Positions 15,253 through 35,028 of a stretch of 35,028 nt of DNA are shown here, piece after piece (position 1 is the stretch's first letter; each line of letters opens with the position of its first letter). Under the pieces are notes generated by a model. The model saw nothing but the letters and a program-made list of their open reading frames with translations, was not told the origin of the DNA and searched no databases. The position numbers and the translations under genes are program-made. The DNA lies in contig MNVE01000014.1 of assembly GCA_001871475.1 (NCBI GenBank), positions 1 to 35,028 of the forward strand, given 5' to 3'. This stretch comes from Candidatus Micrarchaeota archaeon CG1_02_47_40. Its GTDB lineage: Archaea > Micrarchaeota > Micrarchaeia > Anstonellales > CG1-02-47-40.

Positions 15253-15396
15253 GCCCTCGTAGTATAACCTGGATAGAATGCAAGCCTGCGAAGCTTGAGA
15301 CCCGAGTTCAATCCCATATGGGGGGCTTCGCCCCCCCTGAGGGTTTCACCCCCCCAAGAAAGGGGATGAAAAGCTGAATAAATCTCGGCGGGGGCG
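15253..15396 (+). tRNA. tRNA-Arg (anticodon GCG), interrupted in the T-loop
   Basis: The 5' part (15253 to about 15310) supplies acceptor strand GCCCTCG, T8, a D-arm with GGA, the anticodon arm CAAGC-CTGCGAA-GCTTG (anticodon GCG at 15287-15289, hence Arg) and the 5' T-stem CCGAG with TTCA. The 3' part is 70 nt further on: AAT, T-stem CTCGG (15384-15388), acceptor CGGGGGC (15389-15395) and discriminator G. The acceptor pairs 7/7 (one G-U), anticodon stem 5/5, T-stem 5/5, and the spliced T-loop reads TTCAAAT. A20, an Arg identity base, is present. The D-stem is weak (A12-A23 mismatch). CCA is not encoded. A T-rich stretch (15397-15411) follows. Confidence 0.72.
15311..15380 (+). other. putative 70-nt non-canonical tRNA intron (T-loop)
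   Basis: The segment between the two tRNA halves. The exact splice site is ambiguous by 1-2 nt (after TTC, TTCA or TTCAA all restore TTCAAAT), always 70 nt. TTCA (15307-15310) can pair with TGAA (15375-15378), the 4-bp central helix expected of a bulge-helix-bulge splice motif, although the 3' bulge looks longer than 3 nt. Inside are two hairpins: GGGGGGC-TTC-GCCCCCC (15320-15336) and one formed by TTTCA/CCCC with GGGG/TGAAA (15344-15371). Confidence 0.55.
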
Positions 15397-29027: not shown

Positions 29028-30536
29028 TTATATGAAGGCTTCTACATCCTTTTCCTTTCTTTCCTGCTCCTCTTCGAACTTTCGCGCGGAGTCTTCCAGC
29101 CCTTCACCTTTTGTCGAGTGCTTGCTCTTTCTTTTTCTTACATTTATAAATATTGGGTGGCTGGCGGCTTCGCCTATCACAAGCGCCTCCCCCACCCTCA
29201 AGGTGGTGATGGCATTCTGCGCATAATTGTCTATCCCCTCGCAGCTTTCCGCTATGTGCTTTACATCAAAGGGGTTGGTGACGCGCAGGATTATGTTGCT
29301 GTTGCATTGCGAGAGGGCGGTGGTGGAAAGCTGTACCGGCCTTTGGGATACGAGGCAGATGGAAGCGCCGAACTTCCTGCCTTCCCTTGCAAGAGTTTCT
29401 ATTATGCTCTTTGAGATTGCGCTTTCCTTGGGCGCTTTTTCCCTTGCAAAATTGTGCGATTCTTCTATGAGGAGAAGAAAAGGGGGTATAAGCCCCTTCT
29501 TTCTTCTTAAAAAAAGCCTTCTTGCAAAATAGGAGACGATTATCTGCTTTTTCTTTAAGCTATCTATGTCGGACAGGTCAAGCACGGAAAGCGTGCCGGG
29601 CTTTGCAAGCTCGCCTATTTTTGGGAAATCGCCCTTTGAGATGAGCCTCATGGAGTTTATTTCAGCCAGCCAGGAGAGAATCGGTCCCTTCATGTTGTCC
29701 TTCATCTCACTCGCTTCTATCTCCTTTATCAGCTCTGCCAACCCGACCGTTTCCTGCTTTTCCTTCATCTTGCCCTTCATCCGCTTCAGGAGAAGCGCAA
29801 TCTCCCTCTTCTGCGGTGAGGAAAGCTCGCTCACCCATTCAAAGAGCATTTGGGGAGAAACGTTTTTCAGGGAAACTCTTACTTTCTTCCCGTCAAATAT
29901 CTGCGTCTGCCTTGCGTATTGCCCGCTTTTGAAACCCAAATACTCCCCGTGCACGTCAATTACAATCACTGCAATCCTTCCCTGCTCCTTTCCCCTGTCC
30001 AGCAGTTCCTCTATCAGCACCCCGCAGAGATAGCTCTTTCCCGCGCCTGACATTGCCAAGATTGCCAGGTGCTTCTGCAATAATCTTGTAAGGTTGAATT
30101 TCGCGTCTATGGCGTGATTTTGCAGCTTCCCTAAATTCAGCCCCTTCTCCTCAAAGCCCAGAAGCTCCTTTAATGCCTGCTCGTTTGCGCCCTCCACCTT
30201 TGAGCCCGGGGCGGCGGGGAAGATGCTGCGCACCAATCTTCCTTCCTTGTAGACTCCAAGCGCCCTAACCCTTGCGATTACATACTCCCAGTCCGCAGTC
30301 GGGAAATTCTGCGGCATCGGGGAGCCTTTCTCGTACTCTGAAACGCTTTCCGCATGCTCAAAATAGCGGTTTGCGCGCATTATCTCGGAAATTGTGCCAA
30401 AAAGCATTCCATCCTCGCAGCGTGTCTGGACGAACTGCCCCTTCCTTACATTCGGGGAGGAGATTACGAAGGAGAAGAAGGAGGTGGTGGGGCTGTCTAT
30501 TGTGGAGATGACCGTGCCAAGGGAGGTGGAATCCAT
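29028..30536 (-). CDS. herA: HerA DNA helicase/ATPase
   Basis: A 502-aa hexameric bipolar DNA helicase that works with NurA, Mre11 and Rad50 in end resection. N-terminal HAS-barrel (VISSPNVRKGQFVQTRCEDGM), Walker A LAMSGAGKSY (Gly and Lys at about 164-167), acidic Walker B in LLLIEESHNF, and a downstream sensor/Arg finger region near SQRPVQLSTTALSQCNSN. C-terminal tail is charged. The ATG is 26 nt from a TATA box, leaderless. It is divergent from the CRISPR-Cas operon. Confidence 0.92.
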   Translation of the reverse strand: MDSTSLGTVISTIDSPTTSFFSFVISSPNVRKGQFVQTRCEDGMLFGTISEIMRANRYFEHAESVSEYEKGSPMPQNFPTADWEYVIARVRALGVYKEGRLVRSIFPAAPGSKVEGANEQALKELLGFEEKGLNLGKLQNHAIDAKFNLTRLLQKHLAILAMSGAGKSYLCGVLIEELLDRGKEQGRIAVIVIDVHGEYLGFKSGQYARQTQIFDGKKVRVSLKNVSPQMLFEWVSELSSPQKREIALLLKRMKGKMKEKQETVGLAELIKEIEASEMKDNMKGPILSWLAEINSMRLISKGDFPKIGELAKPGTLSVLDLSDIDSLKKKQIIVSYFARRLFLRRKKGLIPPFLLLIEESHNFAREKAPKESAISKSIIETLAREGRKFGASICLVSQRPVQLSTTALSQCNSNIILRVTNPFDVKHIAESCEGIDNYAQNAITTLRVGEALVIGEAASHPIFINVRKRKSKHSTKGEGLEDSARKFEEEQERKEKDVEAFI

Positions 30537-30568: not shown

Positions 30569-30602
30569 AATTGAGGGGGGTCGGACTTCTACCCTGTAAG
30601 TG

Positions 30603-30634: not shown

Positions 30635-31618
30635 ATGCAACTAATAATTGACGATTATGGCGCATATCTTGGGCAGAAGGACAACCTCTTCCAAATAAGG
30701 AAGAAAGACGGGACGTGTGAAGAATATTCTGCCGACAAGGTTGAGCAGATACTTCTTGTGAAAAATAGCTGTATTTCTTCAAGAGCCGCACTCTTGGCAG
30801 CACGAAACAACATAGATGTAGTGTTTGTAGGAAAATTCGGAATGCCGGAAGGAAGGATTTTTCCTGCATGTCTTGGAGGAACAAATCTCATAAGAAGAAA
30901 ACAACTTGAAGCAGGGCAGAATGAGAAAGGAGGGAAAATTGCAATAAAACTTATCTGGGCAAAGATCAAGAATGAGGAATTTTTCCTTAAAACTCTCAAC
31001 AAAAGCAGAACTGCGCCTCTTCTTTTGGAGAAAGCGGAAAAAATAAGCGCTATTGCGGAGCAAGTCCGGCAGATGTTAGGCGAGAAATTTGATGCAGATA
31101 GGGTTTTTGGTTTTGAAGGATTGGCTGCGGCGCACTATTTTGAGGGATTGTCACAGGTAATGCCGATTGAAAAGCGCGACCAAGAGGGAAAAGATGCCCC
31201 AAATGCACTCTTGAATTATGGTTATGGAATGTTGTACGGAGAGATAGAGAAAGCCTGCCTTTTTGCCGGTTTGGACCCGTATCTTGGCTTTCTTCATGCA
31301 GATAGGTACGGCAAGCCCTCTCTTGTACTTGATTTGATAGAAGAGTTCAGACCGGTTATTGTTGATAGGGCGATTATTACGCTTTACGCACAGAAACAGA
31401 TAAACGAGAGTGATTTTGAGCAGGGAGGAGATAAGATTTTTCTTTCAAAAGAAGGGAGAAAGAAGATGATAAAGGCAATTATGGAAAGACTGCATGCAAA
31501 AATAACTTCAGATGGGCGCAAGCTTGAGCTTTCGGTGATAATACAGGAGCAGGCGCGAAGAATCGCCTCCTTTGTGAAGGGAGAGAGCGAGTTTGAGCCT
31601 TTTCTTTACAGGTGGTAG
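30635..31618 (+). CDS. cas1: CRISPR-associated endonuclease/integrase Cas1
   Basis: A 327-aa Cas1, the integrase that inserts new spacers. The metal-binding triad is present: Glu161 in FGFEGLAAAHYF, His221 in GFLHADRYG, and the DLIEEFRP motif (Asp233-Glu236/Glu237). The N-terminal beta domain begins MQLIIDDYGAYLGQK. Leaderless ATG with a TATA box 28 nt upstream. It is first of four tightly packed cas genes, 1 nt before cas2. Its presence shows the locus carries its own adaptation module. Confidence 0.96.
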   Translation: MQLIIDDYGAYLGQKDNLFQIRKKDGTCEEYSADKVEQILLVKNSCISSRAALLAARNNIDVVFVGKFGMPEGRIFPACLGGTNLIRRKQLEAGQNEKGGKIAIKLIWAKIKNEEFFLKTLNKSRTAPLLLEKAEKISAIAEQVRQMLGEKFDADRVFGFEGLAAAHYFEGLSQVMPIEKRDQEGKDAPNALLNYGYGMLYGEIEKACLFAGLDPYLGFLHADRYGKPSLVLDLIEEFRPVIVDRAIITLYAQKQINESDFEQGGDKIFLSKEGRKKMIKAIMERLHAKITSDGRKLELSVIIQEQARRIASFVKGESEFEPFLYRW

Positions 31619-31619
31619 G

Positions 31620-31916
31620 ATGTTTTATTGGGTAATTTATGATATAAGCGAAAACAAGAAACGCGGCAGGGTGGCAAGAATATGCAAAAACTACGGGTTT
31701 AGAAGAGTGCAGAAGAGCGCCTTTGCAGGCGAAACTTCAAAGAATAAGGTGGAGATGCTGTTATTGGAATGCAATGAGATTATAGAGGGAGGGGATGATT
31801 ATTTGTTTGTCATTCCGAACTGCACAAGCTGTTTCAATGGGAAAATGATAACCGGCTGTCTTGACGAGAAAAGAGTGAGAAATCAGCCGTATATGTTTGT
31901 AGGTGATGGCGCATGA
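31620..31916 (+). CDS. cas2: CRISPR-associated protein Cas2
   Basis: A 98-aa ferredoxin-fold partner of Cas1 in spacer acquisition. It begins MFYWVIYDISENKKRGRVAR, with the conserved Asp8 at the end of strand 1 and YGFRRVQKSAFAG in the second helix/strand. ATG 31620 is preferred, as it matches family start; an in-frame upstream frame (31593) lies within cas1. The stop overlaps the cas4 ATG by 4 nt, so translation is coupled. Confidence 0.95.
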   Translation: MFYWVIYDISENKKRGRVARICKNYGFRRVQKSAFAGETSKNKVEMLLLECNEIIEGGDDYLFVIPNCTSCFNGKMITGCLDEKRVRNQPYMFVGDGA

Positions 31917-32524
31917 ACAGAATGGGAATTTTGAGCATTCGAGACATATTGAATTACAACTACTGCCCGCGCATAGTATATTTTGAGTATGTTCTGCGCA
32001 GACCACAGGGCAGGACGAAAAAGGAGGATGAGGGATTGAAACAGCATAATGAATTTGTGCCAAGAGGGAAGAGGAATAAGATGGTTAAACGGATTTGTTA
32101 TGACAAGAAGCTGTTTAATCTGCCGCTTTATTCTCCGCGCATGAACCTTCAAACTGTGGCGGATTGCGTGCTTATTGACACAAAAGAGAAGCTTGCTGTT
32201 CCGATGCAGTTTAAGCATGGAAAAACACCTTCTTGCTTGTATCGGACTATGAAATACCAGCTTGTAGCGGAGGCGTTGCTGATTGAGGAGTGCCTTGGGC
32301 TTTCATGTCCTTATGGACTTGTGAAATTCTTACCTGAAGAAACAACTCTTAGAACAGAAATAGACGAAATTCAAAAGCAAAAACTTAAAGAACAGCTTGA
32401 GAGTATTAACAACGTGGTGAGGTTTGAAAGGTATCCCGATGGTCCGAGAACGAGGAATTACTGCGGGGACTGCTGGTATCATGGAAAAGTTTGCACGGGA
32501 TTTGACGGCAAAATAGTGGGATGA
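31913..32524 (+). CDS. cas4: CRISPR-associated exonuclease Cas4
   Basis: A 203-aa RecB-like nuclease that trims prespacers and selects PAM orientation. The 4Fe-4S cluster cysteines are Cys18 (NYCPR) and Cys184, Cys187, Cys194 (YCGDCWYHGKVC). The nuclease motifs ADCVLID (Asp) and MQFKHGK (Gln/Lys) are visible, with QLVAEALLIEE as motif following. ATGA overlaps couple it to cas2 upstream and cas12f downstream. Cas4 beside a Cas12f is known for a subset of Cas14 loci. Confidence 0.93.
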   Translation: MNRMGILSIRDILNYNYCPRIVYFEYVLRRPQGRTKKEDEGLKQHNEFVPRGKRNKMVKRICYDKKLFNLPLYSPRMNLQTVADCVLIDTKEKLAVPMQFKHGKTPSCLYRTMKYQLVAEALLIEECLGLSCPYGLVKFLPEETTLRTEIDEIQKQKLKEQLESINNVVRFERYPDGPRTRNYCGDCWYHGKVCTGFDGKIVG

Positions 32525-34155
32525 ACATGAGTAAAACTACGATTTCAGTAAAATTAAAGATTATTGACTTAAGCTCTGAGAAAAAAGAGTTTCTTGATAA
32601 CTATTTTAACGAATACGCAAAAGCCACGACGTTCTGCCAGTTAAGAATACGGCGACTTTTGAGAAATACACACTGGCTTGGGAAAAAGGAGAAGAGTTCA
32701 AAAAAGTGGATTTTTGAAAGTGGAATATGCGATTTGTGCGGTGAAAACAAAGAACTTGTGAATGAAGATAGAAATTCAGGCGAACCTGCAAAAATTTGCA
32801 AAAGATGTTATAATGGAAGATATGGCAATCAGATGATACGTAAACTTTTCGTTTCAACGAAGAAAAGAGAAGTTCAGGAAAACATGGACATACGAAGAGT
32901 CGCTAAACTAAATAATACGCATTATCACCGCATACCGGAAGAAGCATTTGACATGATTAAAGCCGCCGATACAGCAGAAAAAAGAAGAAAGAAGAATGTC
33001 GAGTATGATAAAAAAAGACAGATGGAATTTATTGAGATGTTTAATGACGAAAAAAAACGTGCGGCAAGACCAAAAAAACCAAACGAAAGGGAAACCCGTT
33101 ACGTTCATATTTCTAAATTGGAAAGTCCGTCAAAGGGATATACTCTGAACGGAATAAAAAGAAAAATAGACGGCATGGGTAAAAAAATTGAGAGAGCAGA
33201 AAAAGGTCTCTCAAGAAAGAAGATTTTTGGTTATCAGGGCAATAGAATCAAACTTGATTCGAATTGGGTCCGGTTTGACCTTGCCGAATCGGAGATTACT
33301 ATCCCCTCACTGTTTAAGGAAATGAAACTAAGGATAACTGGACCGACCAACGTTCATTCAAAAAGCGGGCAGATATATTTTGCAGAATGGTTTGAGCGGA
33401 TAAACAAACAACCGAATAATTACTGTTATCTGATAAGAAAAACAAGTTCGAACGGCAAATATGAATATTATCTTCAATATACTTATGAAGCCGAAGTTGA
33501 GGCGAATAAGGAGTACGCTGGGTGTTTGGGGGTTGATATAGGATGTTCTAAACTTGCTGCCGCAGTTTATTATGATTCAAAAAACAAAAAAGCACAAAAA
33601 CCAATTGAGATATTCACGAATCCGATTAAAAAAATCAAGATGCGGCGCGAGAAACTGATTAAACTTCTTTCCAGAGTTAAGGTGCGGCACAGACGCAGAA
33701 AACTCATGCAACTCAGTAAAACTGAACCCATTATAGACTATACGTGCCACAAAACCGCAAGAAAAATTGTTGAAATGGCAAATACTGCCAAAGCTTTTAT
33801 CTCCATGGAGAATCTTGAAACTGGGATAAAGCAAAAGCAACAGGCAAGAGAAACAAAAAAGCAGAAGTTTTATCGGAATATGTTTCTTTTCAGAAAATTA
33901 AGCAAACTAATAGAGTACAAGGCTCTGCTGAAAGGGATAAAGATAGTATATGTGAAACCCGATTATACAAGCCAAACTTGTTCTTCATGTGGCGCAGACA
34001 AAGAAAAAACCGAGCGCCCATCACAAGCAATATTTCGCTGTCTTAATCCAACATGCCGATATTATCAAAGAGACATAAATGCCGACTTCAACGCCGCAGT
34101 GAATATAGCTAAGAAAGCTTTAAATAATACTGAAGTAGTAACTACGTTATTATGA
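32521..34155 (+). CDS. cas12f: miniature type V-F effector Cas12f (Cas14-type)
   Basis: A 544-aa RNA-guided DNA nuclease, the size of Cas12f1/Cas14a (400-700 aa). Split RuvC catalytic residues: Asp339 in LGVDIGCSK, Glu430 in ISMENLE, Asp522 in NADFNAA. A target-nucleic-acid-binding zinc finger lies between motifs II and III: Cys487/Cys490 (TCSSCGA) and Cys507/Cys512 (CLNPTC). An N-terminal zinc finger is also present: CDLCGEN (Cys70, Cys73) and CKRC (Cys93, Cys96). ATG 32521 overlaps the cas4 stop; ATG 32527 is an alternative. TnpB is excluded by the cas1-cas2-cas4 operon and the adjacent tracrRNA/array. The gene is visibly more AT-rich than its neighbours. Confidence 0.93.
   Translation: MNMSKTTISVKLKIIDLSSEKKEFLDNYFNEYAKATTFCQLRIRRLLRNTHWLGKKEKSSKKWIFESGICDLCGENKELVNEDRNSGEPAKICKRCYNGRYGNQMIRKLFVSTKKREVQENMDIRRVAKLNNTHYHRIPEEAFDMIKAADTAEKRRKKNVEYDKKRQMEFIEMFNDEKKRAARPKKPNERETRYVHISKLESPSKGYTLNGIKRKIDGMGKKIERAEKGLSRKKIFGYQGNRIKLDSNWVRFDLAESEITIPSLFKEMKLRITGPTNVHSKSGQIYFAEWFERINKQPNNYCYLIRKTSSNGKYEYYLQYTYEAEVEANKEYAGCLGVDIGCSKLAAAVYYDSKNKKAQKPIEIFTNPIKKIKMRREKLIKLLSRVKVRHRRRKLMQLSKTEPIIDYTCHKTARKIVEMANTAKAFISMENLETGIKQKQQARETKKQKFYRNMFLFRKLSKLIEYKALLKGIKIVYVKPDYTSQTCSSCGADKEKTERPSQAIFRCLNPTCRYYQRDINADFNAAVNIAKKALNNTEVVTTLL
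34118..34126 (+). promoter_or_regulatory. putative TATA box for tracrRNA inside cas12f 3' end
   Basis: CTTTAAATA lies in the last codons of cas12f. About 27 nt downstream is 34149, just before the first tracrRNA hairpin (34161). A separate promoter would allow tracrRNA to be made independently of the cas operon. Confidence 0.4.
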
Positions 34156-34340
34156 TTTACTCCGAGTAATCGGATGTGGATTATAGCACAGCAACCTATA
34201 TGGAAGCTGGGAACCGGTTTATCCGGAAATGCGCACCGTTGCATGGAATTATGTGCGCTTAAGACCTTATGATATCGCGCGGCTTGACTTCGCGATAGAC
34301 AGGTCAACTATTGTCTCGGTTCAACGTGCCAATTAGCAGG
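34150..34340 (+). ncRNA. candidate tracrRNA of the Cas12f locus
   Basis: Non-coding stretch between cas12f and the array on the same strand, the usual place for Cas12f tracrRNA. Structure seen: hairpin TCCGA-GTAA-TCGGA (34161-34174); CCGG-TTTAT-CCGG (34214-34226); an anti-repeat at 34238-34259, GTTGCAT then AATT..GTGCGCT, matching the repeat's ATGCAAC, GAATT and AGCGCAC segments in antiparallel order. A second partial anti-repeat, TCTCGGTTCAACGTGC (34314-34329), also pairs with the repeat. In the characterised Cas12f1 tracrRNA a TTGCAT anti-repeat and a second downstream anti-repeat occur in the same order. Ends are approximate. Confidence 0.7.
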
Positions 34341-34440
34341 TCTTTATAAATAGCCTGCAGATTTTCAAGTTGCTTTTCTTAGTGCAGAAAAGAAGGCAGG
34401 AGAAGCCTCCGTTTGGCAAAAAAAGGCGGTTGTATCTACT
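34341..34440 (+). promoter_or_regulatory. CRISPR leader with TATA box
   Basis: A 100-nt stretch directly before repeat 1. TTTATAAA at 34343-34350 predicts transcription of the array from about 34372. The segment is A/T-rich with several A runs. Leader-proximal spacers should be the newest. No ORF is seen here. Confidence 0.55.
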
Positions 34441-35028
34441 GTTTCAGCGCACGAATTAACGAGATGAGAGATGCAACTTCACTGTCAGATAAAGAATAAG
34501 CCACTCTGGTGTCCGTTTCAGCGCACGAATTAACGAGATGAGAGATGCAACTCTGATATTTCCGAGCGTTGAGGATGTGGCAACTGGGGTTTCAGCGCAC
34601 GAATTAACGAGATGAGAGATGCAACTAGACAAGCTCACGAATGTAGTAGCTCATGTTGCCTTTGTTTCAGCGCACGAATTAACGAGATGAGAGATGCAAC
34701 TCTCTCCGCGCAAATCGTATCTCCATGTTCCGCTCCGTTTCAGCGCACGAATTAACGAGATGAGAGATGCAACCAGCCATTTATCTTCTTATTTACTATG
34801 ATTGGGCGGGTTTCAGCGCACGAATTAACGAGATGAGAGATGCAACTTTCTGTCAATCCTTCCGCCAATACTTTGTTTTCAAGTTTCAGCGCACGAATTA
34901 ACGAGATGAGAGATGCAACTGGATATAGGGTATTTGAGATACCCCACACGGGCTTGTTTCAGCGCACGAATTAACGAGATGAGAGATGCAACTATGATTT
35001 ACTGCGCTCGTAGTTGCGACAAAGTGGC
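34441..35028 (+). CRISPR. CRISPR array, 8 repeats and 8 spacers, continues past window
   Basis: Eight identical 37-nt repeats start at 34441, 34515, 34589, 34664, 34737, 34810, 34883 and 34956. Each begins GTTTCAGCGCACGAATTAAC and ends GAGATGAGAGATGCAAC. Spacers are 37, 37, 38, 36, 36, 36, 36 and 36 nt; the eighth (34993-35028) ends exactly at the window edge, so the array probably goes on. The repeat resembles the Cas12f1/Cas14a repeat type (GTTG...ATGCAAC). Absence of any repeat mutation over eight units indicates an intact, recently active array. Confidence 0.97.

Follow-up and report, generated by a model that had tools for sequence, protein, structure and literature searches.

The window (the whole 35,028-nt stretch of DNA analysed here) was contig 12 of genome G000, a 1.15 Mb assembly of 16 contigs that was 93% complete. 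At 15253-15396 it possessed a tRNA-Arg(GCG) gene with a 70-nt intron inside the T-loop, at position 58/59. The 5' exon (15253-15311, + strand) encoded the 5' strand of the acceptor, the D arm, the anticodon arm (CTGCGAA), the 5' strand of the T-stem and TTCAA of the T-loop, an assignment based on identity to the spliced query over positions 1-59, on intact homologs and on a covariance model. The 3' exon (15382-15396, + strand) supplied AT of the T-loop, the 3' strands of the T-stem (CTCGG) and acceptor (CGGGGGC), and the discriminator G. Removal of the intron (15312-15381, + strand) from the 144-nt gene left 74 nt with 7/7 acceptor pairs (one G-U), 5/5 pairs in both the anticodon stem and the T-stem, the anticodon loop CTGCGAA and the T-loop TTCAAAT; the D-stem contained one A-A mismatch. 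The mature sequence would be no different with a junction at 56/57 or 57/58. Within the intron were a conserved structured element (CCC-AUAU-stem-CUGA-GGG-UUUCACCCCC; 15313-15353, + strand; model R2, E 1.1e-7) and a second hairpin (UUCACCCC...GGGGAUGAA; 15345-15370, + strand). The initial annotation had proposed these gene boundaries, the isotype, the 70-nt T-loop intron, the three fully paired stems and the T-loop, all of which held (the D-stem mismatch was not part of its claim), as did its two G/C-rich intron hairpins (15313-15343 and 15345-15370).

No tRNA was called in the window by ARAGORN (bacterial settings) or by Rfam at gathering score, and RF00005 without intron awareness reached 17.7 bits at the locus through mis-pairing. 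An intron-aware scan scored the gene at 19.3 (cut-off 18.9), and a covariance model with a T-loop insert, based on tRNAs of G000, gave 56.8 bits (E 6.5e-12), an optimistic E-value as the model's 26 training rows included the spliced Arg(GCG) sequence. Searching with the spliced sequence recovered full-length, intronless 74-nt homologs in four genomes of the same order, G012 (89%), G019 and G033 (both 88%) and G030 (86%), each matching over 1-74 with the T-loop TTCAAAT. Apart from the two exons of this locus, the same search in G000 returned weaker matches only, the best being tRNA-Gly(CCC) (79% over 6-57), so that the 16-contig, 93%-complete assembly shows no second tRNA-Arg(GCG). Given that incompleteness, an intact copy may still be hidden. 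In 18 ORFs of the window, 24% of the Arg codons were CGU or CGC, which are read by GCG, and tRNA-Arg(GCG) is therefore needed. In G024 (L056, C45) a further homolog runs into an assembly gap right at its T-loop (TTCAANN), which might hide another intron.

Splice-site structure and splicing enzymes

A bulge-helix-bulge (BHB) splice site built on a TTCA/TGAA helix had been suggested by the initial annotation, and this held in part. The TTC/GAA pairing was present; as the sole BHB helix, UUCA/UGAA was demoted to an alternative, because it leaves a 5-nt 3' bulge. The refined central helix, GUUC/GAAU (4 bp, for 58/59, bulges AA^U and AA^A), lies among the junctions that yield the 7-nt loop TTCAAAT, with its predicted 5' strand GTTC at 15306-15309 (+ strand, then the 5' bulge AA^T) and its predicted 3' strand GAAT at 15376-15379 (+ strand, then the 3' bulge AA^A). 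For all T-loop inserts of G000 we evaluated the junctions that preserve a loop of 7 nt, assuming bulges of 3 nt with cleavage behind their second base and permitting G-U pairs. A perfect 4-bp central helix was found in 25 of 27 genes, compared to 3.8 expected from shuffled inserts. Twelve genes had the 56/57 type, mostly GGGU/GCCC with bulges UC^N and AA^A and an inner helix of up to 8 bp; here the intron ends tracked exon changes, GGGU/GCCC becoming AGGU/GCCU in tRNA-Ser(GCT) and GAGU/GCUC in tRNA-Ile(GAT). The 58/59 type (nine genes) paired GUUC with GAAC, GAAU or GGAU, and the 59/60 type (four genes) used UUCR/UGAA or UGAG. Arg(GCG) belonged to the 58/59 type with 4/4 pairs, one of them G-U. 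Taken alone its BHB had a shuffle probability of 0.108, and it therefore rests on the group of genes.

The strict hBHBh' form was not met at Arg(GCG), where the inner helix was zero at the bulges and G53 was shared with the T-stem. As G53 of the T-stem is drawn into the GUUC/GAAU helix, the splice motif is predicted to be a relaxed rather than a strict BHB. Relaxed forms count as members of the wider archaeal BHB intron family. For the unspliced RNA, the lowest-energy fold computed was at -55.7 kcal/mol and the splicing-competent one at about -48 (~7 kcal/mol worse), with a T-stem probability of 0.04; in the absence of RNA data, this preference for a non-splicing structure is a real caveat to the splicing reading. 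A group I or group II self-splicing intron was rejected, as the insert is only 70 nt (such cores are usually >200 nt) and had no Rfam self-splicing match.

The splicing endonuclease EndA of G000 (392 aa) had ARMAN-2 EndA as its best PDB match (4fz2, E 6e-136, full length). Its alignment retained the catalytic Tyr/His/Lys and the Tyr-Lys of the ARMAN-specific loop (ASL; residues per PMC12397907), and its nearest proteins came from Candidatus Micrarchaeota, including Burarchaeum, Fermentimicrarchaeum and LFW-35. We conclude that it is an epsilon2 EndA of the ARMAN-2 type and that an endonuclease for relaxed motifs is present, its activity being inferred from sequence; epsilon2 ARMAN-type EndA cuts relaxed motifs (PMC12397907, PMC6379350). 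The ligase RtcB was also present (PF01139, E 2.8e-169). A BHB-type T-loop intron, as initially read, is supported by the intact homologs, the lack of a detected second copy, the BHB at the TTCAAAT junction and the ARMAN-type epsilon2 EndA. Separately, the RtcB tRNA ligase gene (L017:15043-17982, G000 C6) was itself split by an intein with a LAGLIDADG-like domain.

T-loop introns across the genome

RF00005 identified 11 tRNAs in G000 at E<=1e-3 and gave 34 matches at E<=10, the weak ones repeating one layout (...GTTC, an insert, then ...AAT with the remaining T-arm and acceptor). The covariance model with a T-loop insert found 32 tRNAs at E<=10, of which 29 were at E<0.01. Our intron-aware scan, which permits inserts in the T-loop and at 37/38, called 29 tRNA genes at a score >=18.9; all except Gln(TTG) and Phe(GAA) had a T-loop insert (27/29, 33-135 nt long), and a 37/38 intron was scored in 11 of the 29. 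There were no matches at >=18.9 in 701 kb of Markov-random sequence, whereas 350 kb of real sequence gave 20 genes, 18 of them with a T-loop insert. The ratio of 27/29 covers detected genes only and is no full census, and the loci were partly picked from earlier tRNA matches. Further tRNAs were found by eye and left unscored (Asn, Pro, Val, Thr(GGT), Arg(TCT) and Arg(CCT)), with no T-loop insert in Thr(GGT) or Arg(CCT). T-loop introns also occurred in G001 (11/24 genes called), G005 (5/19), G010 (8/10) and G030 (3/10); these ratios are biased upwards by stretches partly chosen for length, and we use them as evidence of presence only. The standard Rfam tRNA model misses most tRNA genes of G000, so that counts of tRNAs in such archaea can be in error.

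The initial annotation had considered a T-loop intron noteworthy in a DPANN-like genome, which requires correction, since non-canonical DPANN tRNA introns are already known (Nanoarchaeum, ARMAN-1/2; PMC4033280, PMC4090602). What stands out instead is the interruption of the T-loop in nearly all high-confidence tRNA genes of G000, by introns that group into families.

Two further oddities were seen among these genes. Composite introns with nested repeats (CTTGCCCTTCGGGCAAG hairpins, TCGCCAAATCAGGAATTTGGCGAAGGG) occurred in tRNA-Ser CGA (L017), tRNA-Ser TGA (L022) and tRNA-Leu CAA (L089), and three G000 tRNA-Val genes (L002, L038, L046) seemingly carried an extra D-arm insert too.

A structured element shared among introns

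Introns of the 58/59 and 59/60 types, that of Arg(GCG) included, often held the pattern CCC-AUAU-[stem]-CU(A/G)A-GGG-UUUCACCCC. Its short core was present in 18 copies in G000 at one mismatch, compared to none for a reversed-pattern control. In 38 distinct copies the paired positions covaried: the outer pair was C-G, A-U or G-C, and the inner pairs alternated between GG/CC, CC/GG and AA/UU. Double-change cells numbered 42 versus 16 in shuffles and covariation was 0.52 versus 0.12, with none of 500 shuffles as high. Rfam gave no match to the element in the window at gathering score and none that was credible in eight element loci at E<=1. The 11-nt tetraloop receptor pattern UAUGG / CCUAAG fitted some copies, and its GG/CC part was AA/UU or CC/GG in others. 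A tail hairpin (GGG-UUUCA-CCC) was rejected as part of the element for want of covariation.

Of the 84 genomes of the order, 17 contained the element; it was absent from all 213 genomes of the same class that belong to other orders. The class A pattern alone gave false matches elsewhere (many at loci without a tRNA), so its count of 33/84 was not used as a prevalence. In sampled loci, which do not comprise all copies, scripted placement of 41 copies put 10 in the T-loop, two in the anticodon loop and 10 at 2-3 nt past a tRNA 3' end; inspection by eye added six in the T-loop, two in the anticodon loop, one fused to a tRNA 3' end and one antisense at a tRNA 5' end, and about nine lay elsewhere. 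Among 12 strong copies in G000, six were in the T-loop, one in the anticodon loop, two just past a tRNA and three elsewhere, the last three directly following TATA-like boxes and a leader motif. The host tRNAs differed between genomes with little overlap, which therefore suggests repeated entry.

The leader motif (GTAGAAGTCCGACCCC) was rejected as part of the element, as it mostly stands alone after TATA-like boxes. It was present in the window at 30577-30592 (- strand), upstream of a HerA-like gene (29028-30536), and at about ten other G000 sites, roughly 20 nt past TATA-like boxes; it could be a shared operator or 5' UTR element. An element-like sequence, CTAAGGGTTTCATTCC, was also situated close to the 16S rRNA gene (L093, G000 C11 near 248 kb).

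Origin of the interrupted genes

The explanation we consider very likely as a whole is that the only detected tRNA-Arg(GCG) gene of G000 carries a BHB-type T-loop intron, whose precursor would be cut at 58/59 by the epsilon2 splicing endonuclease of the genome, with RtcB joining the exons into a normal 74-nt tRNA with the T-loop TTCAAAT. This intron would belong to a set of no fewer than 27 T-loop introns of G000, with junction types 56/57, 58/59 and 59/60, and many of the 58/59-59/60 introns, that of Arg(GCG) among them, would derive from the structured RNA element of the order, which may have repeatedly entered tRNA genes. The gene structure, the homologs, the BHB enrichment, the presence of the enzymes and the covarying element were demonstrated directly, whereas splicing, for want of RNA data, and the spread of the element as introns are inferences.

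Alternatively, the element might mainly serve tRNA transcripts as a functional RNA signal (a 3' trailer, or a hairpin for processing or termination) and have been recruited into introns, without having spread as introns. This is a possible reading: ten called copies begin exactly 2-3 nt past a tRNA 3' end, the element structure is under selection, and three of the strong copies in G000 are not in tRNAs but just past TATA-like boxes and the leader motif. However, it would be surprising to find a trailer signal within the T-loops or anticodon loops of many isotypes, or in other places. Instead, as the Randau-Soell protection hypothesis proposes (PMC3293823, PMC4033280), T-loop introns might be kept since they destroy the attachment sites that integrating elements use in the 3' halves of tRNA genes. 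The 3' half, where integration usually occurs, does hold nearly all interruptions, but selfish spread accounts for the identical pattern and we had no integrase or integrated-element data; a protective role, which could only be inferred here, appears unlikely. That the Arg(GCG) locus is a pseudogene broken by insertion, with a functional copy elsewhere, agrees with the A-A mismatch in the D-stem and with an assembly that is only 93% complete. Against it, no other copy was found, the exons and all other stems are intact, the CGU/CGC share of Arg codons is 24% in the 18 window ORFs, and 26 other G000 tRNA genes have an identical layout; we regard it as very unlikely, though it cannot be excluded without RNA data. 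An assembly or binning artefact, for which the multi-contig assembly and the gap at the same place in the G024 homolog might speak, is all but excluded, as the pattern recurs on most tRNA-bearing G000 contigs and in the independent genomes G001, G005, G010 and G030.

Related systems are known in several archaea. Non-canonical BHB tRNA introns are known at 53/54, 56/57 and 59/60 (PMC4090602) and share with those of G000 the T-loop location, BHB junctions and a short, non-coding intron; the reported ones, however, are scattered over many positions, whereas 27 of the 29 genes detected in G000 are interrupted in the T-loop. 'Large-scale intron transposition' in Thermoproteales (Fujishima 2010, cited in PMC4090602 and PMC4033280) likewise left tRNAs of different isotypes with similar introns, several of them per gene. 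Thermoproteales are of another phylum, and the element of the G000 order, with its covarying structure, also occurs away from tRNAs and at 2-3 nt past their 3' ends. Pyrobaculum calidifontis has 71 introns in 46 tRNA genes (PMC8450103). In Atabey- and Freyarchaeia, 92-95% of tRNA genes contain introns, often at non-canonical positions (PMC11291895), a very high load similar to that of G000, but these are Asgard archaea and the relevant parts of that paper describe no T-loop bias or shared element. ARMAN-1/2 belong to the same phylum as G000 and have the same enzyme type of broad BHB specificity (epsilon2 EndA: PDB 4fz2, 9w2k; PMC12397907, PMC4033280); tRNAs with multiple introns are known there, but genome-wide T-loop saturation is undescribed in the literature found. 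Neither T-loop saturation in Micrarchaeota nor the element turned up in a search of mostly open-access literature that did not reach the primary papers of 2008-2011. Non-canonical tRNA introns and intron transposition were already known; what is new is the saturation of T-loops with introns in Micrarchaeota, together with the shared element.

A bolder reading, about as likely as not, is that this small structured RNA element of the order inserted repeatedly at fixed sites of tRNA genes (58/59-59/60, 37/38 and 2 nt past the 3' end) and was kept because EndA and RtcB splice it out; together with a second class at 56/57, it would leave almost every G000 tRNA gene without an intact T-loop. If true, intron gain would have a concrete agent in a structured element that is associated with tRNAs and excised by enzymes of the host. 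The concentration of T-loop introns in the 3' half, the usual target of mobile elements, makes the cause of broken archaeal tRNA genes testable, and within one order, because intact and interrupted orthologs both occur there.

Apart from the tRNA gene, the window encoded a complete-looking type V-F CRISPR-Cas locus (30635-35028) with Cas1, Cas2, Cas4 and a Cas12f/Cas14b of 544 aa (E 1.1e-167), and a CRISPR array (34424-34993) of at least 8 repeats spaced at 73-75 nt.
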